The notes under the pieces are model-generated. The model was not told the origin of the DNA. It did no database searches and saw only the letters and a program-made list of their open reading frames with translations. This document shows positions 1,083-37,128 of a stretch of DNA of 39,749 nucleotides, in pieces. Source of the stretch: Fibrobacter sp. (GTDB lineage Bacteria; Fibrobacterota; Chitinivibrionia; Chitinivibrionales; Chitinispirillaceae); assembly GCA_012523595.1 (NCBI GenBank), contig JAAYIG010000211.1, positions 1 through 39,749 of the forward strand, read 5' to 3'. Positions within the stretch are counted from its first letter, which is position 1; each line of letters starts with the position of its first letter. The position numbers were made by a program, and so were the translations under genes.

Positions 1083-3656
1083 TTACCTCCCAAAACTCAA
1101 TCTTAAAACTTCCTCTCTTTCCTCTTTTCTCACCTTCAGAAGTAATACTCCAGCACTCATCTCTGATTTAAAGGTGAAATTGTAATTTCCGGATTTTAAT
1201 TGTCCGTTACAGAGATTCTTTACCAGTCGCCCACTGAGATTAAAAAGTCCTATTTTATACAAACCATCAGAAAGTACATTGAGCCTGATATTGTTTTTAT
1301 CCAGAACAGCCGAAATCAACCTGTTTGTACCCCTTGATGGTTTCGAAACGGTTCTGATTCCGGTATTATCGGTTTTGATAGAGATATTATCAAAGTAAAA
1401 AATTGTACTCCTGTTCGCCCCGCCCAGATCAAAGGAGAGACGGGCAGATGGTGTTGAGGCGGAATCCATTACAAATGGAATTGTAAATGTCTGAAATTCA
1501 TTTGAAAGGCCGATCTTCCTTGACACATTTCCGAAAGTACCGCTGCTTCCCAGGAACAGGTTAAAAGAATCACTGCTCTCTGATCTGGCATCAAAGGAAA
1601 GGACATATGCCTTTCCCTTAACAAGTGGTATGTTGCCCTGAAAAAACTGTACGTTCCATTCATATGGACCGCCATTTACCACTGTATATTTGAGTATACC
1701 ATTTTCAATCACCTGTGTTCCCTCTGCAGAGTTATCCTCACTCCAGGTGCTGAATGTCCATCCGGTTTTGCCCTCCGAAAAATCGCCATTGACAAGCAGC
1801 TCCTCTGCAGAAACAAAAAGGGCTCTGATATCAAGATCCCTGTTTACTGTAACCCTGATAGTGGATGTCTTTGAACTGTCATCACCGCTCCATCCCGCAA
1901 AGGTCCAGCCGCTTCTGGCAGTGGCAGTAAGAGTTACCTCTGTTCCCTCTGCAATACGGATACTTTCAATTGAACGCGTTACGGTGCCTCCTCCGACTGC
2001 ACTTGTAAGCAGAGTATAATAATTCAGCCGGGGCAGCACAGTGATTGAATCTGTTGAGAGGACAAAATGTAACATGCTGTATCCCGGAAGTGTATATGTA
2101 AAGGAGTTTTCCGTTATTAAGGATACATTGTTTTTAGGATTTATTGCCGTATCTCCTTTTGCCAGACCGTATACAACACCCGAGAGGTATTTTTTTGTCC
2201 CCTCAATTTTAAGAGATGCAGGAGTGTCGGTTGCTTTTTTATTGATGATAATAACATGCAGAAACTTTTCGTTTCCTGATTCCACTGACGAATAGATTGA
2301 GTATCTAGTGGAATCAGCGTTTACTGAAGGCACAAGCATATCTCCGAAACCGTTCATATAACCATCTATGTTTCTGAATAGTTTAAAAGCCTGAGCAAGA
2401 AAATTTACAGGGGCTACATGAAGATTCGCCGTATAGATACCCTCTCGTGCGAAGATTCCCAGAACATCTGCAAGTGCAAGTCCCCCGGACCAGTGATTTG
2501 ATGCGCCATAGCTGTATTCAGTAACGGCAAGTTTCGTTTCTGGATACCACTGATCTATGGATCTCTTTACTCTTGGCAGCAGATTAAGAGGGTTACCTGA
2601 GTTAAGATCCATTATCCAGCTATCTTCTTTGTAATCAGGGTCCCATAAGGATCTGGGCGCCTGGAGTCTTGCCTCTATCGCACCTGATGTTGTATCGTCT
2701 CCGGTGATCCGTTTTCCGTCACCTCTTGCTTCAGGGTACCAGTGAATCGCCAGGACATCGAGCAGTCTTAAACCAGCAGCATCTGACTTCTTTTTCATTT
2801 CTCCAAGGTATGCCGATATTGCCCAGTCGTAAGTAGAACTGAACAGACCCCAGTCTACTGCATCTGTGAAATCGTGCATTTCCCAGTACCCCCAGGATTC
2901 CAGGCCGAAAATCTCAGCAGTAGGATCAACCGCTTTTACTGCGGAGGCAAGAGAGGCTGACTTGTCGATGATCTGCTGTGCGGTCACTTTGACAGGGAAG
3001 ATTCTGGGATGAGTGTTGTTCCACAATCCCGGTTCATTGTCCAGGCAGAAGGCTTTAACTCCACCCTGAGATGCTGTACCATACAGTTGAACCAGATTGT
3101 ATATGCATTCATCAATATATACAAAGTAATCTGTTAAGTCCGGGCTGAGTGAAAAAGATGATCCCTTCCTGAATACCACTTCTTTCCATCTGGATGAAGG
3201 GGCAGCTTCGTTTTCTGAAACCGGCCCATCTGTATCCGCTGCAACAAAACCAGCCATCGGCAGTTGAATGATCGGGAAACGCCCATTTGAGCGGGTGTAT
3301 TCAAAAAATGTTCGCAGTGTGCCAAGTGGTTCAGCCGGTGCTGTAAGCGGGTTACTTGTCAGCCAGTTATCACTGTTATGCTGCCAGTCGGCCCCGGCAC
3401 TGGATGCATTATTTTCCCAGTTATAACCTGTCAGACGGTTTCCACCCAGGCGATCTGAGGTCAGGTTGAGATCAGTTAGCGAGGAATATATAGCAGGACT
3501 TTGTGCAACAGCATTGATTCCGTAAATGTATGGGCTGATGGCTTTAGATGGACCTTCAGGAAATACCTTAAATTGGAGTTCTTGTGCTGAAATGTAGATC
3601 GGTAAAAGGGAGAATAAATAAAGAATTGCTTTGATCCTGCTGTAGCTGTTTACCAT
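1083..3656 (-). CDS. Secreted GH44 endoglucanase/xyloglucanase with CBM-like and T9SS-type sorting domains
   Basis: This 857-residue protein has a signal peptide (1-24) and a GH44 catalytic region (about 28-535). The presumed acid/base is Glu208 in LDNEPGLW and the nucleophile is Glu380 in LAVTEYSYGA, about 170 residues apart as in other GH44 enzymes. A divergent InlB B-type repeat follows (about 550-614, GWTFAGWSGDDS), then a beta-sandwich carbohydrate-binding-like domain (about 620-762, starting LLVNGDFSEGKTGW). The C-terminal module (about 780-857, YKIGLFNLSGRLVKN, then LLLKV) resembles a type IX secretion type A sorting domain. GH44 enzymes cleave beta-1,4-glucans and xyloglucan outside the cell. 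The start is supported by AAAGGA six bases upstream. It is divergent from the DUF4423 regulator, across a promoter region with repeated motifs. Family assignment is firm; the exact substrate is not. Confidence 0.9.
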   Translation of the reverse strand: MVNSYSRIKAILYLFSLLPIYISAQELQFKVFPEGPSKAISPYIYGINAVAQSPAIYSSLTDLNLTSDRLGGNRLTGYNWENNASSAGADWQHNSDNWLTSNPLTAPAEPLGTLRTFFEYTRSNGRFPIIQLPMAGFVAADTDGPVSENEAAPSSRWKEVVFRKGSSFSLSPDLTDYFVYIDECIYNLVQLYGTASQGGVKAFCLDNEPGLWNNTHPRIFPVKVTAQQIIDKSASLASAVKAVDPTAEIFGLESWGYWEMHDFTDAVDWGLFSSTYDWAISAYLGEMKKKSDAAGLRLLDVLAIHWYPEARGDGKRITGDDTTSGAIEARLQAPRSLWDPDYKEDSWIMDLNSGNPLNLLPRVKRSIDQWYPETKLAVTEYSYGASNHWSGGLALADVLGIFAREGIYTANLHVAPVNFLAQAFKLFRNIDGYMNGFGDMLVPSVNADSTRYSIYSSVESGNEKFLHVIIINKKATDTPASLKIEGTKKYLSGVVYGLAKGDTAINPKNNVSLITENSFTYTLPGYSMLHFVLSTDSITVLPRLNYYTLLTSAVGGGTVTRSIESIRIAEGTEVTLTATARSGWTFAGWSGDDSSKTSTIRVTVNRDLDIRALFVSAEELLVNGDFSEGKTGWTFSTWSEDNSAEGTQVIENGILKYTVVNGGPYEWNVQFFQGNIPLVKGKAYVLSFDARSESSDSFNLFLGSSGTFGNVSRKIGLSNEFQTFTIPFVMDSASTPSARLSFDLGGANRSTIFYFDNISIKTDNTGIRTVSKPSRGTNRLISAVLDKNNIRLNVLSDGLYKIGLFNLSGRLVKNLCNGQLKSGNYNFTFKSEMSAGVLLLKVRKEEREEVLRLSFGR

Positions 3657-3714
3657 ACGTTGTCCTTTCCAGAATTATCAGGATTTATAAATGGTTTTGT
3701 TTATCAAGGAATAC

Positions 3715-4118
3715 TGTTCACAAATCATCAGATAATTAATAGACATAAAAAAATCGGTACAGGTTAATATAAACAAATTTTTCCAGAAAAAAGGCTTTTT
3801 TTCTGGAAAAAGTCACTGATAGGTGGGAAAACTGTTCACAATTTAAATGAATATTATTGAAATTAAGTATACAATGAATAATTTTATATTCGTTCAACAG
3901 TCAAAGGCAGATTTGTTAAAAAGGGTTATTTCGATAAATAAATCAGGGTGGTTTTAGATATTGCTGCTTATGTGTGATTGGAAAGCTACGTGTCTGCTGG
4001 AAATAAAGTTTAGTGTTCACTTTCATATTAAATAAATTATTTAGAAATTTGATAAAACTTACAAAGAGCCTGCATTTGCGGAATATATAGTTGCAAAATG
4101 AATGATATATGTTCACAA
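3715..4118 (+). promoter_or_regulatory. Four-copy TGTTCAC direct-repeat cluster (candidate operators)
   Basis: TGTTCACAA occurs at 3715-3723, 3833-3841 and 4110-4118, and TGTTCACTT at 4014-4022, all on the plus strand. The first two share the longer ACTGTTCACAA. Three exact 9-mers plus a near match in about 400 bases is far more than chance in one intergenic region. The copy at 4110 sits just upstream of the candidate -35 of the regulator gene. These are inferred binding sites, possibly for the adjacent DUF4423 protein. Confidence 0.5.
3778..3811. repeat. Perfect 15-bp inverted repeat with 4-base loop
   Basis: TTTTTCCAGAAAAAA (3778-3792) is repeated as its exact reverse complement at 3797-3811, separated by GGCT. 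It lies about 120 bases upstream of the GH44 start. It could act as an operator, or as a hairpin in a long GH44 leader. No gene ends nearby that it could terminate. Confidence 0.6.
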
Positions 4119-27708: not shown

Positions 27709-27766
27709 ATGATGAGTATTTTAATTCCCTTCCGAAACAATCATCAATTCAGAAAAAGGAGTGATT

Positions 27767-27955
27767 ATGGTGCAGCTTGCCGAGATACGGAAAAAAGCCA
27801 GGGAGTTGGGAATTTCAGGTGCGAAGATGAAAAAGGATGAACTGATTCAATCTATTCAGAAAGCTGAGGGGAATTTTCCCTGTTTTAAATCGGCACAGAC
27901 TGATTGTGGTCAGATGGATTGTTGCTGGCGTGAAGATTGCCTTCCTAAGAAATGA
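27767..27955 (+). CDS. Small SAP / Rho N-terminal-like protein (62 aa)
   Basis: The first ~35 residues (LAEIRKKARELGISGAKMKK then DELIQSIQKAEGN) form the helix-extended-helix of SAP/Rho-N domains, which bind nucleic acid. The Cys-rich tail (FPCFKSAQTDCGQMDCCWRE, then DCLPKK) matches a recurring small-protein family that ends in a WRxDC motif. The tail might bind a metal; that is inference. ATG at 27767 is preceded by AAAGGAG five bases upstream; a GTG at 27761 overlaps that site. It lies just upstream of the ilv leader but has its own promoter. Confidence 0.75.
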   Translation: MVQLAEIRKKARELGISGAKMKKDELIQSIQKAEGNFPCFKSAQTDCGQMDCCWREDCLPKK

Positions 27956-27972
27956 TTTTAGTAAGAAAGAAG

Positions 27973-28001
27973 TTGCTTTTTTCTCAGTTTTTATTTACAT
28001 T
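27973..28001 (+). promoter_or_regulatory. Candidate promoter of the ilv-leu operon leader
   Basis: TTGCTT (27973-27978), a 17-base spacer and TACATT (27996-28001). Transcription would begin at about 28008, the first base of the leader-peptide ATG, which has no ribosome binding site. The match is moderate. Confidence 0.4.
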
Positions 28002-28007
28002 AAATTC

Positions 28008-28109
28008 ATGCGTATGAAAAGCCGAATCAATAGTGTAATTCTAAGTGCTGTCCTGCTTGTAGTAGGCGTGGTAGTAATTGTTCCCGCCAGAAGGGAAACG
28101 GGCATTTAG
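28008..28109 (+). CDS. Branched-chain amino acid attenuator leader peptide
   Basis: This 33-residue ORF (ATG at 28008, a second ATG at 28014, TAG at 28107-28109) contains 15 Val, Ile or Leu codons. Thirteen of them fall in the 16-residue run VILSAVLLVVGVVVIV, and the peptide ends PARRETGI. It is the same kind of peptide as the E. coli ilv leaders IlvL and IvbL. It sits directly before a terminator hairpin and the ilvB gene. When charged Val/Ile/Leu tRNAs are short, the ribosome would stall in the run and leave the downstream antiterminator free. There is no ribosome binding site, so translation may be leaderless. Confidence 0.85.
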   Translation: MRMKSRINSVILSAVLLVVGVVVIVPARRETGI

Positions 28110-28170
28110 AGCATACGCTTAAAAAGGTAAAAATAAGGCCCGTTTCCCTCGAGGGAAACGGGCCTTTCTG
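28081..28170 (+). promoter_or_regulatory. Ribosome-mediated transcription attenuator of the ilv-leu operon
   Basis: GGGAAACGGGC at 28093-28103, inside the last codons of the leader peptide, is an exact copy of the right arm of the terminator hairpin (28153-28163). It is therefore complementary to the left arm (28138-28148). Pairing 28093-28103 with 28138-28148 gives an antiterminator; a ribosome that finishes the leader covers 28093-28109 and lets the terminator form. A smaller early hairpin, TTCCC (28081-28085) with GGGAA (28093-28097), could serve as the pause structure. The mutually exclusive structures and leader composition are seen directly; the mechanism is by analogy with enterobacterial ilv operons. 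Confidence 0.85.
28137..28170 (+). terminator. Attenuator terminator hairpin
   Basis: A perfect 28-base palindrome (28137-28164) has arms GGCCCGTTTCCC and GGGAAACGGGCC around TCGA. It is flanked by AA upstream and TTTCTGTTTTG downstream, giving a very stable hairpin with a T-rich tail 27 bases after the leader-peptide stop. Confidence 0.9.
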
Positions 28171-28272
28171 TTTTGTTAAAGGATAATTTCTTGATTGTTC
28201 GGGGCGGAGGTCGTATTTTACACTGTTTTGATCTGCCCCGGATCGTCTGTCAATGAACTATTGGAGGATGCT

Positions 28273-29997
28273 TTGAGGAAGACAGGTGCGCAAATTGTTG
28301 TTGATGCCCTGATCAGGGAGGGTGTCGAGGTTGTTTTCGGATATCCGGGTGGTGTGGTTATCCCTATTTTTGATGTCCTTTATGATACAAAAGAGATCAA
28401 ATTTATCCTGACCAGGCATGAGCAGGCTGCCGCACATGCGGCTGATGGTTATGCAAGGGCCAGCGGGAAAGTTGGAGTTTGTCTGGCTACTTCGGGACCG
28501 GGAGCAACAAATCTTGTGACAGGTATTGCCACCGCTTATCTCGACTCTATCCCCATGGTTGCTATCACCGGCCAGGTTGCTTCGTGGCTGCTTGGTTCAG
28601 ATGCATTTCAGGAAGCGGATGTGGTCGGGATCACAAGACCCATAACCAAGCACAACTTTCTTGTCAAGTCGGTGGAAGAACTGCCGGGAATAATTAAGAA
28701 GGCTTTTCACATAGCATCAACAGGAAGACCCGGGCCGGTGCTTGTGGATATACCTGCGGATATCTCCAGATCTGTTCATGAGGACTATAAATATCCGGAT
28801 TCTGTCAAGATACGCAGCTACAAACCTAATCTTGTCGGCAATCTCCGTCAGATAAAACGGGCAGCAGAGGCTATTGAGGCTGCTCGTAAGCCGGTGATTT
28901 TTGCCGGTGGCGGGATTATACTTTCCGGGGCCCATGAGGAGCTCAGGACTTTGGCTGAAACCACCAATATTCCTGTGACTACCACATTAATGGGGCTTGG
29001 GGCTTTTCCTGGAGATCATCCTCTTTTTATTGGTATGCCCGGGATGCATGGATCGAAGACCGCGAATTTCGCTCTTCAGGAGAGTGATCTTATCATCTCT
29101 GTGGGTGCGCGTTTCGATGACCGGGTGACAGGTTTTGTGGCAAAATTCGCTCCCAATGCAAAAATAATTCACATGGATGTTGATCCGGCGGCCATATCAA
29201 AGATAATTGAGGTTGACATTCCGGTTGTGGGTGATGCTAAAAATATTCTGACATCTCTTAATAAATTTGTCAAACCCAGGCAGCCGGATGAATGGAACGA
29301 GTTGATCAACACCCGTAAGGGCAGCAGGCTTTTTAACTATACTCAATCGCAGACTGAGATAAAGCCGCAATGGGTGATAGAGCAGCTTCAGAAGCAGGTC
29401 GGTAATGATGCTATCATCTGTACTGAGGTGGGTCAGAACCAGATGTGGACTGCGCAGTTTTACAAATTCACAAAACCCCGCACTCTTATCACATCTGGAG
29501 GTCTGGGGACGATGGGGTTCGGGCTGCCGGCAGCCATGGGCGCGGCGCTGACAAATCCGGGTGTTCCTGTGATCGATATTGCCGGTGATGGATCTATACA
29601 AATGAATATACAGGAACTGGCCACTCTGGCAGTGGACCGGATCCCGGTCAAGATTCTTATCCTCAACAACACTTATTTGGGGATGGTGCGTCAGTGGCAG
29701 GATCTGTTTCACAATAAGAGATACAGTGCGACGTGTCTTCGCGGTGGTGTCCTTTGTAATGAGTGTGCCGGTACACAGAAGTGTAAGCGCAACTATGTCC
29801 CTGATTTTGTGGCTCTTGCCAACAGTTACGGCATTAAGGGATTCAGGGCAGAGGAAGTGGGGCAGGTTGAATCGGTTATAAAAGAGGCGCTTTCCATCGA
29901 CGGGCCTGCGCTTATGGAGTTTATGATTCCGCCGGAAGAAAATGTGTTTCCGATGGTTCCGGCTGGCAAACCGATTGATGAGATTCTGGAGGGATAA
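28273..29997 (+). CDS. ilvB: Acetolactate synthase large subunit
   Basis: This 574-residue thiamine-diphosphate enzyme condenses pyruvate with pyruvate or 2-oxobutyrate, the first common step to Val, Leu and Ile. Catalytic Glu50 lies in TRHEQAAAHAADGYA. The TPP/Mg motif starts at Gly438 (GDGSIQMNIQELATLAVDRI) and ends NN. A Cys-rich insertion at 488-504 (CLRGGVLCNECAGTQKC) with four Cys lies where most homologues have a short loop. I chose TTG at 28273 because GGAGG lies exactly five bases before it and the protein then begins MRKTGAQIVVDALIREGVEV, the usual N-terminus. The longer frame from 28195 adds 26 unlikely residues. It is controlled by the attenuator upstream, and ilvN follows after one base. 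Confidence 0.95.
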   Translation: MRKTGAQIVVDALIREGVEVVFGYPGGVVIPIFDVLYDTKEIKFILTRHEQAAAHAADGYARASGKVGVCLATSGPGATNLVTGIATAYLDSIPMVAITGQVASWLLGSDAFQEADVVGITRPITKHNFLVKSVEELPGIIKKAFHIASTGRPGPVLVDIPADISRSVHEDYKYPDSVKIRSYKPNLVGNLRQIKRAAEAIEAARKPVIFAGGGIILSGAHEELRTLAETTNIPVTTTLMGLGAFPGDHPLFIGMPGMHGSKTANFALQESDLIISVGARFDDRVTGFVAKFAPNAKIIHMDVDPAAISKIIEVDIPVVGDAKNILTSLNKFVKPRQPDEWNELINTRKGSRLFNYTQSQTEIKPQWVIEQLQKQVGNDAIICTEVGQNQMWTAQFYKFTKPRTLITSGGLGTMGFGLPAAMGAALTNPGVPVIDIAGDGSIQMNIQELATLAVDRIPVKILILNNTYLGMVRQWQDLFHNKRYSATCLRGGVLCNECAGTQKCKRNYVPDFVALANSYGIKGFRAEEVGQVESVIKEALSIDGPALMEFMIPPEENVFPMVPAGKPIDEILEG

Positions 29998-29998
29998 G

Positions 29999-30481
29999 AT
30001 GGGTACACATACTATATCAGTGATGGTTGAGAACCACAGCGGCGCTCTTTCCAGGATAGCCGGGCTCTTTTCCAGCAGAGGCTACAATATCTCAAGTCTG
30101 ACAGTTGCCGAGACAGAGGACTCTTCGGTTTCACGGATGACCATAATAGTCGATGGTGATGAGAGTGTTCTTGAACAGATTGTAAAGCAGCTTAACAGGC
30201 TTGTAGATGTAATCAAGGTTATTGACTTTGGCGATGATCCGATCGTGGAAAGAGAGATGCTTCTTATCAATATCGATTCCTCCAAGGCAAACCGTCATGA
30301 GATTGTTGAACTGGGTGGGATATTCGGAGCGCGAATAGCATCCGTCTCCCCGACATCAATTACATTTGAGATGACCGGGACAAAGAAATCCATAGATGAT
30401 TTCATGATGATGGTGAAGCCTTACGGAATTAAAGAGGTGGTCAGGTCAGGGACAATCGCTATTGCTCAGGCTAAGAAATAG
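29999..30481 (+). CDS. ilvN: Acetolactate synthase small (regulatory) subunit
   Basis: This 160-residue protein has an N-terminal ACT domain (MGTHTISVMVENHSGALSRI, then AGLFSSRGYNISSLTVAETE) that binds valine and confers feedback inhibition. A C-terminal ALS_ss_C domain follows (VEREMLLINIDSSKANRHEI, ending RSGTIAI). ATG at 29999 follows the ilvB stop by one base, and GGAGG lies six bases upstream inside ilvB. A longer frame from 29942 has no ribosome binding site and would overlap ilvB. Length is typical. This symbol is also written ilvH. Confidence 0.97.
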   Translation: MGTHTISVMVENHSGALSRIAGLFSSRGYNISSLTVAETEDSSVSRMTIIVDGDESVLEQIVKQLNRLVDVIKVIDFGDDPIVEREMLLINIDSSKANRHEIVELGGIFGARIASVSPTSITFEMTGTKKSIDDFMMMVKPYGIKEVVRSGTIAIAQAKK

Positions 30482-30549
30482 ATTGTTGGAGGACCCTCCG
30501 GGCCCGTTTCCAGCTTAATGTTTACACTTTTTCAGAAGGAGCCCAATTT

Positions 30550-31650
30550 ATGGCTATAATCGATTTCGGCGGAAAAAAAGAAGAAGTCATCACCCGCAAG
30601 GAGTTTACTCTTGCTAAAGCCAGAAAAACACTTAAAGGTGAAACTATCGCCATCATCGGTTACGGTGTGCAGGGTCCCGCCCAGGCATTGAATCTCAAGG
30701 ACAATGGCTTTAATGTCATTGTCGGACAGGCGAAAAAGTTCAGGAAAGACTGGGATCGCGCAGTTAAGGATGGGTGGGTACCAGGTAAGACTCTGTTTGA
30801 CATCGGAGAGGCAGCCCAGAAAGGAACAATAATCCAGATGCTTGTTTCGGATGCAGCGCAGATGGCAATCTGGCCTACTATCAAGAAATACCTGACACCA
30901 GGAAAGGCGCTGTATTTTTCTCACGGTTTCTCTATTGTATATAAGGAACAGACAAAGGTCATTCCTCCAAAGGATATCGATGTTATTCTCGTTGCTCCAA
31001 AGGGAAGCGGAACCTCAGTACGCAGGAATTTCCTGAATGGAGCCGGGATCAACTCCAGTTACGCGGTTTTCCAGGATGCTACCGGCAGAGCTGAAGAGCG
31101 CTGCATTGCAGTTGGTATTGGGATTGGATCAGGGTATCTGTTCCCGACAACATTCCAGAAAGAAGTATACAGCGACCTTACGGGTGAGCGGGGAGTTCTG
31201 ATGGGTGCACTTGCCGGAATTATGGAGGCACAGTATGATGTGCTCCGTAAAAACGGCCATTCTCCCAGTGAAGCTTTCAACGAAACAGTTGAGGAACTGA
31301 CACAGAGTCTGATCAGACTGGTTGACGAAAACGGAATGGACTGGATGTACTCAAACTGCTCAGCAACTGCTCAGCGCGGTGCGCTTGACTGGAAGCCGAA
31401 GTTTAAGAAGGCTACGCTGCCCGTTTTCAAGGAACTTTATGATTCCGTCAAGAGTGGCAAGGAAACCAGAAGAGTTCTGACTGTCTGCGGAAAGCCCAAT
31501 TATAAGGAACTATTGGACAAAGAACTATCTGCAATGGGTAACTCGGAGATGTGGCTGGCGGGTAAGGCAGTAAGGAGCCTGCGCCCGAAAGAGAAGGCCA
31601 AAGAGATATCCAAAGCAACAAAGGGTATCGCTGGCCGCGGTAAAAACTAG
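30550..31650 (+). CDS. ilvC: Ketol-acid reductoisomerase
   Basis: This 366-residue enzyme isomerises and reduces acetolactate or acetohydroxybutyrate with NADPH and Mg2+. The N-terminal Rossmann motif is IAIIGYGVQGPAQALNL (GxGxQG). The Mg-binding acidic motif is SDLTGERGVLMG, with further KARI-C features (EAQYDVLRKNGHSPSEAFNE, then YSNCSATAQRGALDW). It is somewhat longer than the common ~330-residue class I form. Its opening and coenzyme loop (VGQAKKFRKDWDRAVKDGW) look like the Bacteroidetes/fungal branch. AAGGAG precedes the ATG. It follows ilvN after 68 bases. Confidence 0.95.
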   Translation: MAIIDFGGKKEEVITRKEFTLAKARKTLKGETIAIIGYGVQGPAQALNLKDNGFNVIVGQAKKFRKDWDRAVKDGWVPGKTLFDIGEAAQKGTIIQMLVSDAAQMAIWPTIKKYLTPGKALYFSHGFSIVYKEQTKVIPPKDIDVILVAPKGSGTSVRRNFLNGAGINSSYAVFQDATGRAEERCIAVGIGIGSGYLFPTTFQKEVYSDLTGERGVLMGALAGIMEAQYDVLRKNGHSPSEAFNETVEELTQSLIRLVDENGMDWMYSNCSATAQRGALDWKPKFKKATLPVFKELYDSVKSGKETRRVLTVCGKPNYKELLDKELSAMGNSEMWLAGKAVRSLRPKEKAKEISKATKGIAGRGKN

Positions 31651-31665
31651 TATATCCGGATAAAG

Positions 31666-31693
31666 GCGCCCCCTGGTTAAGGGGGGCGCTTTT
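31666..31693 (+). terminator. Candidate internal terminator between ilvC and leuA
   Basis: GCGCCCCC (31666-31673) pairs with GGGGGCGC (31682-31689) around an 8-base loop, preceded by AAAG and followed by only four T. It may end part of the transcripts after ilvC and lower leuA-ilvE expression. Confidence 0.6.
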
Positions 31694-31718
31694 GGAGGCC
31701 GGAAGTATAAGAGGATAT

Positions 31719-33299
31719 ATGAAAGACAAAGTCTTGATTTTTGATACGACCCTGCGTGATGGCGAGCAGGCTCTTGTTTCCAGTTTGTCAGTTGAGCAGA
31801 AACTCAGAGTGGCCAGACAGCTTGCCAGACTCAATGTGGATATTATTGAGGCAGGTTTTCCGGTTTCTTCCCCTGGTGATTTCCAGTCGGTCACAAGCAT
31901 CGCACGTGAAATAAAGGGACCTATAATCTGTGGGCTTGCCAGAGCTGTGGAAAAAGATATCCTGGCCTGCGCGCGTGCCATTAAACCGGCGGAGCAGTGC
32001 CGTATCCATACTTTTATCGGTACTTCGGGTATTCATACAGAGAAAAAGCTGCGCAAGACTGAAGGTGAAATACTGGAAATTGTAAAGGGATGTGTCCGTC
32101 TTGCCAGACGCCATTGCGGAGATGTGGAATTTTCTCCCGAGGATGCGGGCAGGACCGGAGTTGATTTTCTCTGCCGTGTTGTGGAGACCGCTATAGATGC
32201 TGGTGCAGGTACAATAAATATTCCTGATACTGTGGGCTATACCACACCGGAGCATTTTGCCAAAATAATTGACGAATTGTTCAACAGAGTGCCTAATATT
32301 GATAAAGCGGTAATTTCCGTGCACTGCCACAATGATCTGGGAATGGCCACAGCGAACTCTCTTACAGCGGTTTTGCATGGCGCGCGCCAGGTGGAATGCG
32401 CAATCAACGGTATTGGTGAGAGGGCGGGTAATGCCGCGCTGGAAGAGGTGGTGATGGCGATAAAGGTGAGGAAGGATCTTTTCGGTCTTTCCACATCTGT
32501 AAATACACGCGAGATCATGCGAACAAGCAAGCTCGTCAGAGAACTCTGTCACATGCCGGTGCAGCCAAACAAAGCTATAGTGGGATCCAATGCTTTTTCC
32601 CATTCCTCCGGAATTCATCAGGACGGAGTGCTCAAGGAAAAGAAAACCTATGAGATAATAACACCACAATCGATCGGCTTGAAGGAAAACAGGATGAACC
32701 TGACCAGCCGTTCCGGAAGCCACATGGTCAGATCACGTCTTCTGGATCTGGGGTACAGTGAGGTTGAGGCCGGTTCCGAGGACATTTACAAACGCTTTAA
32801 GGAATTGGCAGATAAGAAAGGTACAGTGTACGATGATGATCTTATTGTGCTTATGGAATCAAAGAGCAGTGAAGATCTCAAGGACAGGTTTGTGCTCGAG
32901 ACCTTAAATGTGTCAAGCGGGAGAGGGACTATCCCCACTGCCACCGCAAGGATCCTTGTTGATGGAAAGCTCTACAGTGAGGCGGCCTGCGGTGACGGGG
33001 CGGTTGATGCGGCAACAAAGGCAATCGACAGGATTGTCGGATACAAGATCAAAATAGACAACTTTCATCTGGAAGCCGTGACTGAAGGCCGCGAAGCCCA
33101 GGGGCGGGTTTCTATTGTGGCCAGGTCCGATGAGGGGGTTTTTAACGGTGCAGGAACCAGTACCGACATCGTTGAGGCGTCGGCACTGGCATATATGGAT
33201 GTTGTAAACAAGATAGCCAGGATGAAGAGATTCAAACGTAAGTTACCAGCAGCGGCAGTTAATTCGGCCGCTGATAAAAAATCGGAGAAGGGTGCCTAA
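31719..33299 (+). CDS. leuA: 2-isopropylmalate synthase
   Basis: This 526-residue enzyme condenses acetyl-CoA with 2-oxoisovalerate, the first committed step of leucine synthesis. The N-terminal HMGL-type TIM barrel shows LIFDTTLRDGEQ (metal-binding DTTLRDGEQ motif), ISVHCHNDLGMATANSLTAV (HxH metal ligands) and AINGIGERAGNAALEEVVM. SSGIHQDGVLKEKKTYEI marks the linker. The C-terminal LeuA allosteric domain (about 390-510) allows leucine feedback inhibition. I chose ATG at 31719, with GAGG five bases upstream; the TTG-started extension lies in the terminator region. leuB follows with no gap. Confidence 0.95.
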   Translation: MKDKVLIFDTTLRDGEQALVSSLSVEQKLRVARQLARLNVDIIEAGFPVSSPGDFQSVTSIAREIKGPIICGLARAVEKDILACARAIKPAEQCRIHTFIGTSGIHTEKKLRKTEGEILEIVKGCVRLARRHCGDVEFSPEDAGRTGVDFLCRVVETAIDAGAGTINIPDTVGYTTPEHFAKIIDELFNRVPNIDKAVISVHCHNDLGMATANSLTAVLHGARQVECAINGIGERAGNAALEEVVMAIKVRKDLFGLSTSVNTREIMRTSKLVRELCHMPVQPNKAIVGSNAFSHSSGIHQDGVLKEKKTYEIITPQSIGLKENRMNLTSRSGSHMVRSRLLDLGYSEVEAGSEDIYKRFKELADKKGTVYDDDLIVLMESKSSEDLKDRFVLETLNVSSGRGTIPTATARILVDGKLYSEAACGDGAVDAATKAIDRIVGYKIKIDNFHLEAVTEGREAQGRVSIVARSDEGVFNGAGTSTDIVEASALAYMDVVNKIARMKRFKRKLPAAAVNSAADKKSEKGA

Positions 33300-34364
33300 A
33301 TGAAAAGCTACAATATTGCATTGATACCGGGAGATGGAACAGGTCCTGAGGTACTTCGGGAGGGAGTAAAGGTTCTGGAGGCTGTTTCGAAGCGTTACGG
33401 AATAAAGTTGAATTATACTGATTATGATTTTGGCGGTGATCGCTACAATCGGACCGGGGAGACACTTCCTGATTCCGCAATCGAGGAGTTTCGCAAACAT
33501 AACGCAATTTACCTCGGGGCTATAGGGCATCCGGATGTTAAACCTGGTATTCTTGAACTTGGCATACTTCTCAAACTGAGATTCGCACTTGACCAGTACA
33601 TCAACCTTCGTCCGGTCAAGCTCTATCCCAATGTTGAAACTCCGCTGCGGGACAAGGGGCCGGAGCAGATAGATTTCGTGGTCATAAGGGAGAATTCCGG
33701 CGGGATCTATACCGGTATGGGCGGGGCTGCGATGGTTGGAACCTCTCAGGAGATAGCCACACAGGTGATGGTTTACTCGCGCAGCGTGGTAGAAAGGTGC
33801 ATACGGTACGCTTATGAATATGCACGTAAGAGGAACAAGAAGAAGCTTCTGACACTTGTTCACAAATGTAATGTGCTTACGTATGCAGGTGATCTGTGGG
33901 TGCGCACACACAATGAGGTGGGGGAGAAGGACTATCCCGATATCAAGAGGGATTACAATCATGTGGATGCCTGCACCATGTGGATGGTGAAAAGTCCGGA
34001 GTTCTACGATGTAATAGTGACAGAAAACCTCTTTGGTGACATCATAACAGATCTTGGTGCCATGATCCAGGGTGGTATGGGCATAGCTGCTGGTGGAAAC
34101 ATAAACCCTGAGGGAGTTTCGATGTTCGAGCCTATCGGGGGGAGTGCTCCCAAGTACACAGGTCAGAATGTGATCAATCCCCTTGCGGCAATCTGTGCCG
34201 GGGCTATGATGCTTGAGACACTTGGAGAGAACGAGGCCAGTGCAGCTATTGACAAAGCGGTATATGATGCCCTTTCTTCCGGCAAGATAAAGAGTATGTC
34301 GGCTGGACGAATGGGAATGAGTACTACCGAAGTTGGAGACCTGATAGCATCGATGGTTTCCTGA
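33300..34364 (+). CDS. leuB: 3-isopropylmalate dehydrogenase
   Basis: This 354-residue NAD-dependent beta-decarboxylating dehydrogenase makes 4-methyl-2-oxopentanoate for leucine synthesis. Family marks are [33 protein letters not shown], the substrate Lys/Asp segment [17 protein letters not shown], and [20 protein letters not shown] followed by [14 protein letters not shown]. The form resembles the shorter archaeal/actinobacterial branch. Related enzymes (isocitrate, tartrate or 3-methylmalate dehydrogenase) are hard to separate by eye, but the position directly after leuA argues for LeuB. The ATG begins one base after the leuA stop. leuCD is not adjacent. It may also serve the citramalate route. 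Confidence 0.88.
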
Positions 34365-34390
34365 ACAGATGTTTTATCGGGCAGAAAAGT

Positions 34391-36025
34391 ATGAAAAACA
34401 AAAAACAATCCGTATCTCTTTATGATACCACGTTACGTGATGGAAATCAGGCACTGGGGATCAGCTTTTCCCTGAGTGACAAACTTCGCATAGCCGAAAA
34501 ACTCGATGAGTTCGGGATACACTATATTGAAGGAGGCTGGCCCAATCCCACCAGCCCGATTGACACCGAATTTTACAGAGAGGTATCCAGGGCAGGGTTC
34601 CATGCGAAAATCGCAGCCTTTGGCAGCACAAGAAGACCGGGGTGTAAGAGCGAGGATGATCCTTTTCTGAGGAATCTGGTGGAGACTGGAGTCCCGGTTG
34701 CTACAATATTCGGTAAAAGCTGGGGTCTGCACGTTACCCATGTCATAGGTACCGATAAAGACGAGAACCTCAGGATGATAACCGACTCCGTCAGATTTCT
34801 GAAAAAGAACATGGAAGAGGTTATCTACGATGCGGAGCATTTCTTTGACGGATACAAGTCTGATCCACAGTATGCGATAAGCACCCTTATGGCAGCCGGT
34901 GAAGCAGGTGCAGACTGTATAGTGCTCTGTGATACCAATGGTGGTGTTCTGCCCGATGAACTTGTTGCAATATTTTTGGATGTCAAATCGAAAATCCCGA
35001 CACCGCTTGGTATCCATGCTCATAACGATTCCGGCTGTGCAGATGCAAATTCATGTGTGGCAGTAATAAACGGAGCGGTTCATATTCAGGGCACGATCAA
35101 CGGACTTGGGGAGAGATGCGGTAATGCCAATCTCTGCACAATTATCCCGAATCTTCAATTGAAGAGAGGGTTTCCGCTGGTGACCCCACAGCAGCTCAAA
35201 ACTCTTTCGTCACTCTCGGTATTTATCGCTGAGATTGCCAACGTCATTCCTGATATCCGGGCGCCGTATGTGGGTAAAGCGGCCTTTTCTCACAAGGCTG
35301 GTGCTCATGCTGACGGGGTGCGTAAAGTGAGGGAGTCTTTTGAACATGTATCTCCCGACTGCACCGGTAACGAACGTCAATTTGTCGTATCAGACCAGGC
35401 GGGATCCGGGACCATGCTGGAGAAGCTTGAGACAATTCGTCCCGGGCTGAATAAGAAAGATCCGGATGTAAAGAAGCTTCTCTTGAGAATCAAGGAGCTT
35501 GAGTCTCAGGGATATCAGTTTGAGGCGGCTGAGGGATCTTTTGAACTGATTGCCAGGGAGATGCTGGGACAATTCCGGGAGCCTTTCATCGTAATGGGTT
35601 TCAGGGTAATTGAGGAGAAGAAGGAAAACGGAAAAGTTTTTTCCGAGGCGACTATAAAGATAAAGGAAAATGATGTTTTCGAACACACCGCTGCTGAAGG
35701 TGACGGACCGGTGAATGCGCTTGATAATGCTCTGCGTAAGGCTCTGATCAAGTTTTATCCTTCGCTTAGCAAGGTGAAGCTGGAAGACTTTAAAGTGAGG
35801 GTACTCGATGGCAGGGATGGCACGGAGTCGAAGGTCCGGGTGCTTATTGAGTCATCAGATGGTATCAGCAGTTGGGGAACTGTAGGAGTTTCCACAAACA
35901 TCATCGAAGCTTCCTGGCTGGCCTTGATCGACAGTCTTAAATACAAGCTCATGAAGGACAAATTCATGATTAATACCGGCAAATCAGAGATAACATCTGA
36001 GATTTGTCAAGCTGCTGTCAAATAG
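34391..36025 (+). CDS. cimA: (R)-citramalate synthase
   Basis: This 544-residue relative of LeuA condenses acetyl-CoA with pyruvate to citramalate, giving a threonine-independent route to 2-oxobutyrate and isoleucine. The barrel has SLYDTTLRDGNQALGISFSL (note DGNQ instead of DGEQ), GIHYIEGGWPNPTSPIDTEF, the ligand motif LGIHAHNDSGCADANSCVAV and GTINGLGERCGNANL. The IEGGWPNPxxP segment and TLRDGxQ-x-xGI pattern match the TIGR00977 citramalate synthase group. A C-terminal LeuA-type regulatory domain (about 420-530) is present. There is no strong ribosome binding site before the ATG. It lies between leuB and ilvE in the same direction. Confidence 0.9.
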   Translation: MKNKKQSVSLYDTTLRDGNQALGISFSLSDKLRIAEKLDEFGIHYIEGGWPNPTSPIDTEFYREVSRAGFHAKIAAFGSTRRPGCKSEDDPFLRNLVETGVPVATIFGKSWGLHVTHVIGTDKDENLRMITDSVRFLKKNMEEVIYDAEHFFDGYKSDPQYAISTLMAAGEAGADCIVLCDTNGGVLPDELVAIFLDVKSKIPTPLGIHAHNDSGCADANSCVAVINGAVHIQGTINGLGERCGNANLCTIIPNLQLKRGFPLVTPQQLKTLSSLSVFIAEIANVIPDIRAPYVGKAAFSHKAGAHADGVRKVRESFEHVSPDCTGNERQFVVSDQAGSGTMLEKLETIRPGLNKKDPDVKKLLLRIKELESQGYQFEAAEGSFELIAREMLGQFREPFIVMGFRVIEEKKENGKVFSEATIKIKENDVFEHTAAEGDGPVNALDNALRKALIKFYPSLSKVKLEDFKVRVLDGRDGTESKVRVLIESSDGISSWGTVGVSTNIIEASWLALIDSLKYKLMKDKFMINTGKSEITSEICQAAVK

Positions 36026-36090
36026 AATACTGCGCGCCGTTCCTCAGGGCCGGAGCGTGAAACATTAGTTTCCTTTTTAAGGGAAGTATT

Positions 36091-37128
36091 ATGAAAAACA
36101 TCGATTGGCGGAATCTGGGATTCAAGTATACTCAGACGGATTGTTTTGTCACCTGCAGCTACACAAACGGCAGATGGGGTGAGATTGAGATAAAGACCGA
36201 GCCTGAGCTGCGCTTTCATCTTGCTGCGACCTGTTTCCATTATGGTCAGGCCTGCTTTGAGGGAATGAAGGCATTTACACAGCTTGACGGGACAGTAGCG
36301 GTTTTCAGGCCTGAAATGAACGCGGCCAGAATGCAGGCCACAGCGGAGCGTCTGATGATGCAGGCTCCTCCGGAGGAACTGTTTCTGGAGGCTGTTAATG
36401 AACTTATACTACGTAACATTGAGTGGGTTCCTCCTTACGGTACAGGAGCCAGTCTGTATGTAAGGCCTTTGCTTGTGGGATCCAGTCCCCACATTGGCGT
36501 GCATCCTTCAGAGGATTATCTGTTCCTGGTCCTATGCATGCCCGTTGGTCCTTATTACAGGAACGGATTTGCGCCTGTTAATGCTTATATACAACGTGGT
36601 TACGACAGAGCAGCCCCCAGAGGTGTTGGACATGTCAAGGCTGCCGGAAATTATGCTGCCGGGATGCTGGGTGATTATGACGGGAAGGCAAAGGGGTACC
36701 CGATATGTCTTTATCTTGATTCCGCTACTCATCAGTACATCGATGAGTTTGGGACATCAAATTTTCTGGGGATCGCAAAAGACAACAAGTATGTCACACC
36801 CGCTTCATCATCGATTCTGCCATCCATCACCAACAGCAGTCTCCAGGTGATAGCATCCGACTTCGGCATGAAAGTGGAGAAACGGCAGATTCCTGTAACT
36901 GAACTCCCTGAGTTTGCAGAGGTTGGCGCCTGTGGAACAGCGGCAGTGATCACACCGGTCTACTCGATAACCGATGGGGACAAAGTGTATACTTTCGGCA
37001 AACAGGACGAAGCAGGTGAGACACTGACCAGGTTTTACAAACAGATTCAGGGGATTCAGTACGGTGAACTGGAAGATAAACATCAGTGGATGGTTCCGGT
37101 TAAAACCCTCTCGACTGCAAATGTTTGA
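36091..37128 (+). CDS. ilvE: Branched-chain amino acid aminotransferase
   Basis: This 345-residue class IV PLP aminotransferase of the group II (BCAT) type carries out the last step to Val, Leu and Ile using glutamate. Visible motifs are YGQACFEGMKAF, ASLYVRPLLVGSSPHIGVHP, the Schiff-base Lys183 in GHVKAAGNYAAGML, the FGTSNFLGIAKD segment and EVGACGTAAVITPVYSI. Length is normal. AAGGGAAG lies about five bases before the ATG. It closes the ilv-leu unit and is followed by a hairpin shared with the convergent acyltransferase gene. Confidence 0.95.
   Translation: MKNIDWRNLGFKYTQTDCFVTCSYTNGRWGEIEIKTEPELRFHLAATCFHYGQACFEGMKAFTQLDGTVAVFRPEMNAARMQATAERLMMQAPPEELFLEAVNELILRNIEWVPPYGTGASLYVRPLLVGSSPHIGVHPSEDYLFLVLCMPVGPYYRNGFAPVNAYIQRGYDRAAPRGVGHVKAAGNYAAGMLGDYDGKAKGYPICLYLDSATHQYIDEFGTSNFLGIAKDNKYVTPASSSILPSITNSSLQVIASDFGMKVEKRQIPVTELPEFAEVGACGTAAVITPVYSITDGDKVYTFGKQDEAGETLTRFYKQIQGIQYGELEDKHQWMVPVKTLSTANV

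Follow-up and report, generated by a model that had tools for sequence, protein, structure and literature searches.

The region upstream of ilvB in the 39,749-nucleotide stretch of Fibrobacterota DNA analysed here (the window) is very probably a ribosome-mediated transcription attenuator for the supply of isoleucine, valine and leucine. Its three sequence elements, a leader peptide ORF, a terminator and a copy of a terminator arm at the end of the ORF, are real and occur far beyond chance. We describe the anatomy and conservation of this region directly, and from them infer its transcription start, its termination and its response to amino acids. The window, probably from the order Chitinispirillales (class Chitinispirillia), belongs to a 4.1 Mb assembly that is 99.5% complete, and all its features below lie on the plus strand unless noted.

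The leader ORF (28008–28109, ATG to TAG, without a Shine-Dalgarno sequence) encodes the 33-residue peptide MRMKSRINSVILSAVLLVVGVVVIVPARRETGI. Fifteen of the 33 residues are Ile, Leu or Val, and 13 of these fall at residues 10–25, a density that none of 2000 dinucleotide shuffles of 27956–28272 matched (shuffle maximum, 11 per 16 residues). Across 33 loci, these three amino acids make up 43% of the leader in frame, as compared to 21% and 8% in the other two frames. The control codons GGC GTG GTA GTA ATT GTT (G V V V I V; 28065–28082) stand 9–14 codons ahead of the stop; when the leaders are aligned on their stop codons, Ile, Leu or Val codons have a frequency of 0.70–0.91 in the stretch from −13 to −9 and are nearly absent between −6 and −2. 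In many loci the peptide's C-terminus is RETG followed by a single residue; this is an RNA arm (segment 2, below) read in frame.

Four segments make up the leader RNA. Segment 1 (28040–28060) lies within the ORF and has segment 2 as its partner. Segment 2 (28089–28109), the 5′ arm of the antiterminator, overlaps the last codons and the stop; its core, GGGAAACGGGC (28093–28103), exactly repeats 11 bases from the terminator's right arm. Fold and duplex computations assign segment 3 (28135–28148) as both the left terminator arm and the 3′ arm of the antiterminator, and segment 4 (28153–28166) is the right terminator arm, behind which an interrupted T-rich tract (TTTCTGTTTTGTT) runs to about 28175. 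The terminator stem (28135–28166) begins after a 25-base spacer from the end of the ORF and consists of 14 perfect pairs closed by a TCGA loop; in 500 shuffles of 27956–28272 no perfect stem of this length arose, the longest reaching 10 bp. The first-pass annotation had reported a 33-codon ORF with 15 branched-chain residues, 13 of them in a 16-residue run, and an exact 11-base copy of the right arm in its last codons, and we recover both as described. The perfect palindrome it reported is likewise present, but is 32 bases long rather than 28, because the TCGA loop is itself palindromic.

To ask which structures these segments favour, we folded the leader with and without a ribosome in place, a check close to the one suggested in the first-pass annotation, which proposed folds with and without 28093–28109 blocked. 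The leader fold has a z-score of −4.6, the 2:3 duplex of the window is computed at −22.9 kcal/mol, and the minimum-free-energy structure of the full leader combines 1:2 with 3:4. In constrained folds with assumed footprint sizes, a stalled ribosome yields 2:3 and a ribosome at the stop yields 3:4. The two mutually exclusive RNA structures originally proposed are thus supported by these folds, and also by the 2:3 partner-swap test that follows. One point against this model is that the terminator outweighs the antiterminator at equilibrium, which means that the switch must be kinetic.

In the swap test, the end of each ORF was paired either with its own left terminator arm or with the arms of other loci. 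Own 2:3 pairs averaged −19.1 kcal/mol as compared to −15.9 kcal/mol for swapped pairs, with 0 of 20,000 permutations as good (whether all loci or one per genus were used); own 1:2 pairs, between the first part of each ORF and segment 2, averaged −15.9 against −13.7 kcal/mol, with 6 of 20,000 as good (one locus per genus), so that support for 1:2 is weaker than for 2:3, and in both tests some effect of shared ancestry may persist. The antiterminator and terminator arms co-vary between genera, and the changes are threefold: most loci carry CGGG in segments 2 and 4 and CCCG in segment 3, whereas two (L009 and L014) carry CAGG and CCTG, respectively. Among the loci listed, segment 2 ends no more than about 6 nt from the end of the stop codon. 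The 2:3 pairing is weak in three loci of genus g11, and a good 2:3 pairing is absent from L029, where leader and terminator are present. Because the 1:2 stem inside the ORF adds to 2:3 and 3:4, the region has the full four-segment layout of a trp/ilv-type attenuator: an ORF rich in codons for the pathway's products, a terminator, the 2:3 and 1:2 pairings, and the matching placement of control codons and stop. The 1:2 stem, together with the leaderless promoter geometry and downstream promoter discussed below, is added here to the first-pass description.

We next compared the regions upstream of orthologous ilvB genes at 35 loci of the window's order. An Ile/Leu/Val-rich leader ORF with a terminator was present in 33 of these; the exceptions, L113 and L114, belong to one genus and have neither element upstream of ilvB. 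Lack of conservation among relatives had been named in advance as grounds for rejecting the attenuator, and the outcome was instead positive, with leader and terminator in 33 of 35 regions and arms that co-vary. The guess that the DNA was Fibrobacterota-like also proved right. Two further families of the phylum carry a leader before ilvD (G167 and G166); in G167, ilvB follows as the next gene of the operon. By contrast, the other, more distant families examined (f8–f12, Fibrobacter-type) showed no such leader near ilvB, so the suggested comparison across Fibrobacterota gave conservation throughout most of the window's order and none seen at ilvB in these five families. These families have a more divergent IlvB (about 46–51% identity), and a search of Fibrobacter-type genomes reaching as far as about 5 kb ahead of ilvB found no leader before another first gene. 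Our leader detector fires on 29 of the 33 ilvB leaders and on 0 of 63 ilvD, trpE/pabB, hisG and hom loci from 13 relatives.

Two other leaders were seen during this comparison. A MAG labelled Kiritimatiellae (L032) has a branched-chain leader ORF and terminator around 3600–3843, by a similar ilvB-ilvN-leuA-cimA cluster; the resemblance to an attenuator is suggestive, its 2:3 duplex is weak (−10.2 kcal/mol), and horizontal transfer or misbinning of the cluster is possible. A second, distant ilvB paralog in G015, G005 and G001 (L144, L145 and L146) is preceded by another, unrelated attenuator-like leader, with a Val-rich ORF whose stop codon lies inside CCG(TCA)TAGGGG, a copy of the arm of the terminator.

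A divergent minus-strand gene lies to one side of the leader region and ilvB to the other. The acetolactate synthase large subunit gene ilvB (28273–29997; TIGR00118, over cut-off) probably starts at the TTG at 28273 behind GGAGG, as comparison of relatives indicates, and this start replaces the mechanical ORF start at 28195. Family models identify ilvN, ilvC, leuA, leuB, cimA and ilvE downstream (29942–37128), confirming the seven-gene ilv-leu-cim operon of the first-pass annotation as ilvB-ilvN-ilvC-leuA-leuB-cimA-ilvE. Separately, the window's IlvB has a Cys-rich insertion, CX6CX2CX5C, between RQWQDLF and PDF (motif CLRGGVLCNECAGTQKCKRNYVPDF), which could bind a metal or an iron-sulfur cluster; it is found in most of the order, has lost its cysteines in L008, has similar counterparts in L032 and L051, and is absent from most other phyla scanned. 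Ahead of the leader, 27761–27955 encodes a 64-residue protein that combines a Rho_N-like domain with a Cys-rich tail and is also conserved upstream of ilvB in L002, L008, L011 and L024.

The palindrome might be nothing other than the ordinary terminator of this small Rho_N-like gene, with the ORF an accident. The gene is on the plus strand, ends 180 bases ahead of the palindrome and is kept upstream in a few relatives. However, by tblastn it is found upstream in only 5 of 30 loci of the order (the window included), and leader and terminator persist where it is missing; moreover, the arm copy changes together with the terminator arm, and the enrichment in Ile, Leu and Val is frame-specific, which argues against an accidental ORF. 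We regard this explanation as exceedingly improbable. That the peptide regulates ilvB at the level of translation, or works in trans, rather than governing termination, is highly unlikely: peTrpL of S. meliloti provides a precedent for trans action by a leader peptide (PMC7298713), but the conserved RETG C-terminus corresponds to the RNA arm and changes together with segment 3, and the Shine-Dalgarno sequence of ilvB (28263–28267) is about 95 nt past the terminator, outside the conserved pairing.

A further alternative accepts the attenuator and concerns only its 5′ end, which could be an ordinary 5′ UTR wrongly taken as leaderless. The predicted promoter P1 (27973–28001) consists of TTGCTT (27973–27978), a 17-nt spacer and TACATT (27996–28001), and would place the transcription start at about 28007–28009, at the leader ATG. 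In the window alone P1 is a weak match (83 of 200 shuffles are equally good), and families f3, f5, f6 and f7 have 17–39 nt between the −10 box and the ATG (67 in L029), some with SD-like sequence; both points favour a 5′ UTR. Within the window's family, however, the −10 box ends 6–9 nt from the ATG at 15 of 22 loci (shuffled expectation, 9% for 4–9 nt), the strongest promoters (TTGACA/TAAATT) are among the loci with this geometry, and an SD-like word precedes the leader ATG at 1 of 22 loci. Families f2, f13 and f14 have a similar 5′ end geometry, or nearly so. Because the −10 box lies 6–9 nt from the ATG and no Shine-Dalgarno sequence precedes it, the leader mRNA of the window's family is probably leaderless, and we consider an ordinary 5′ UTR there unlikely.

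A second promoter-like element, P2 (28191–28219), consists of TTGATT (28191–28196), 17 nt and TATTTT (28214–28219). The pattern TTGA(T/C)-N-N16–18-TATTTT immediately follows the terminator at 20 of 33 loci, as compared to 0.05 expected in shuffles. On its plain reading, P2 would be a promoter that bypasses the attenuator and gives unattenuated expression; it could instead be a protein-binding site (operator).

Judged from its sequence, the leader would almost certainly work like the classic E. coli attenuator. RNA polymerase would start at 28008 or one to two bases off, and therefore the ribosome would load directly on the 5′ AUG. When charged tRNA is ample, the ribosome would reach the stop at 28107 and cover segment 2, allowing the 3:4 terminator to form. 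When branched-chain tRNA is short, it would stall on the Val and Ile codons at 28065–28082 and cover segment 1, so that segment 2 could pair with segment 3 and polymerase would read through into ilvBNC-leuAB-cimA-ilvE. In the absence of translation, 1:2 and 3:4 would form and transcription would end. Transcription from P2, which lies past the terminator, would provide basal expression that escapes attenuation. We lean, by a small degree, towards a broader proposal: that four-segment branched-chain attenuators with a leaderless leader mRNA are ancient and conserved in much of Fibrobacterota, arose independently of those of Proteobacteria and Actinobacteria, and are coupled to a bypass promoter that is itself conserved and sits just past the terminator.

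These data place ribosome-mediated attenuation of branched-chain amino acid synthesis in a phylum of polymer-degrading anaerobes. The probably leaderless leaders of the window's family contrast with those of its sister families, which have a 5′ UTR, and this contrast would make it possible to ask how the architecture of the 5′ end affects the timing of transcription and translation in attenuation; the leader is also usable for annotating branched-chain operons in uncultured genomes.

The E. coli ilvBN and ilvGMEDA attenuators combine multivalent control by Val, Leu and Ile with four-segment logic, and their leaders are translated from a 5′ UTR with a Shine-Dalgarno sequence; the window shares the four-segment logic and, as predicted from its codons, the multivalent control, but has no Shine-Dalgarno sequence and probably no 5′ UTR. 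Its 5′ end and layout have a parallel in ilvL of C. glutamicum ilvBNC: the transcript begins a single nucleotide away from the start codon of the leader, and a branched-chain-rich leader before ilvB is accompanied by a terminator, an antiterminator and an anti-antiterminator (PMC11857589). That leader has 15 residues rather than 33 and precedes a smaller operon in a distant phylum; we saw no shared sequence, and the parts of the source consulted describe no P2-like element behind the terminator (PMC11857589). At ilvB1 of M. tuberculosis, as predicted for the window, a ribosome at the stop codon of a branched-chain uORF masks the antiterminator arm, although two alternative structures and LVVI control codons are described there, in another lineage (PMC13236596). 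The RNA 5′ end of S. meliloti rnTrpL (trpL) is likewise the AUG of its leader ORF (PMC7298713), in this case a 14-residue Trp leader that also acts in trans. Finally, the ilvB-OMG, ilvB-II and Leptospira ilvB RNA motifs, from several phyla, have uORFs rich in branched-chain codons upstream of ilvB, those of ilvB-OMG and Leptospira being proposed (PMC10272879). Their likeness to the window lies in the description of the uORF; an Rfam scan of the window returned no family at gathering score, and neither T-box nor ppGpp riboswitch among matches up to E = 10. The best sub-threshold match, PyrG_leader (34.4 bits; gathering, 65), follows the generic terminator shape and was rejected. A 2010 survey, before which leader-peptide systems were known only from Proteobacteria and Actinobacteria, added Firmicutes (PMC2965389), and our search, confined to open-access literature, found no report of leader-peptide attenuation in Fibrobacterota. 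The mechanism is therefore a known one, nearly leaderless forms in Proteobacteria and Actinobacteria included, and the system described here adds a member to it with features specific to this lineage.
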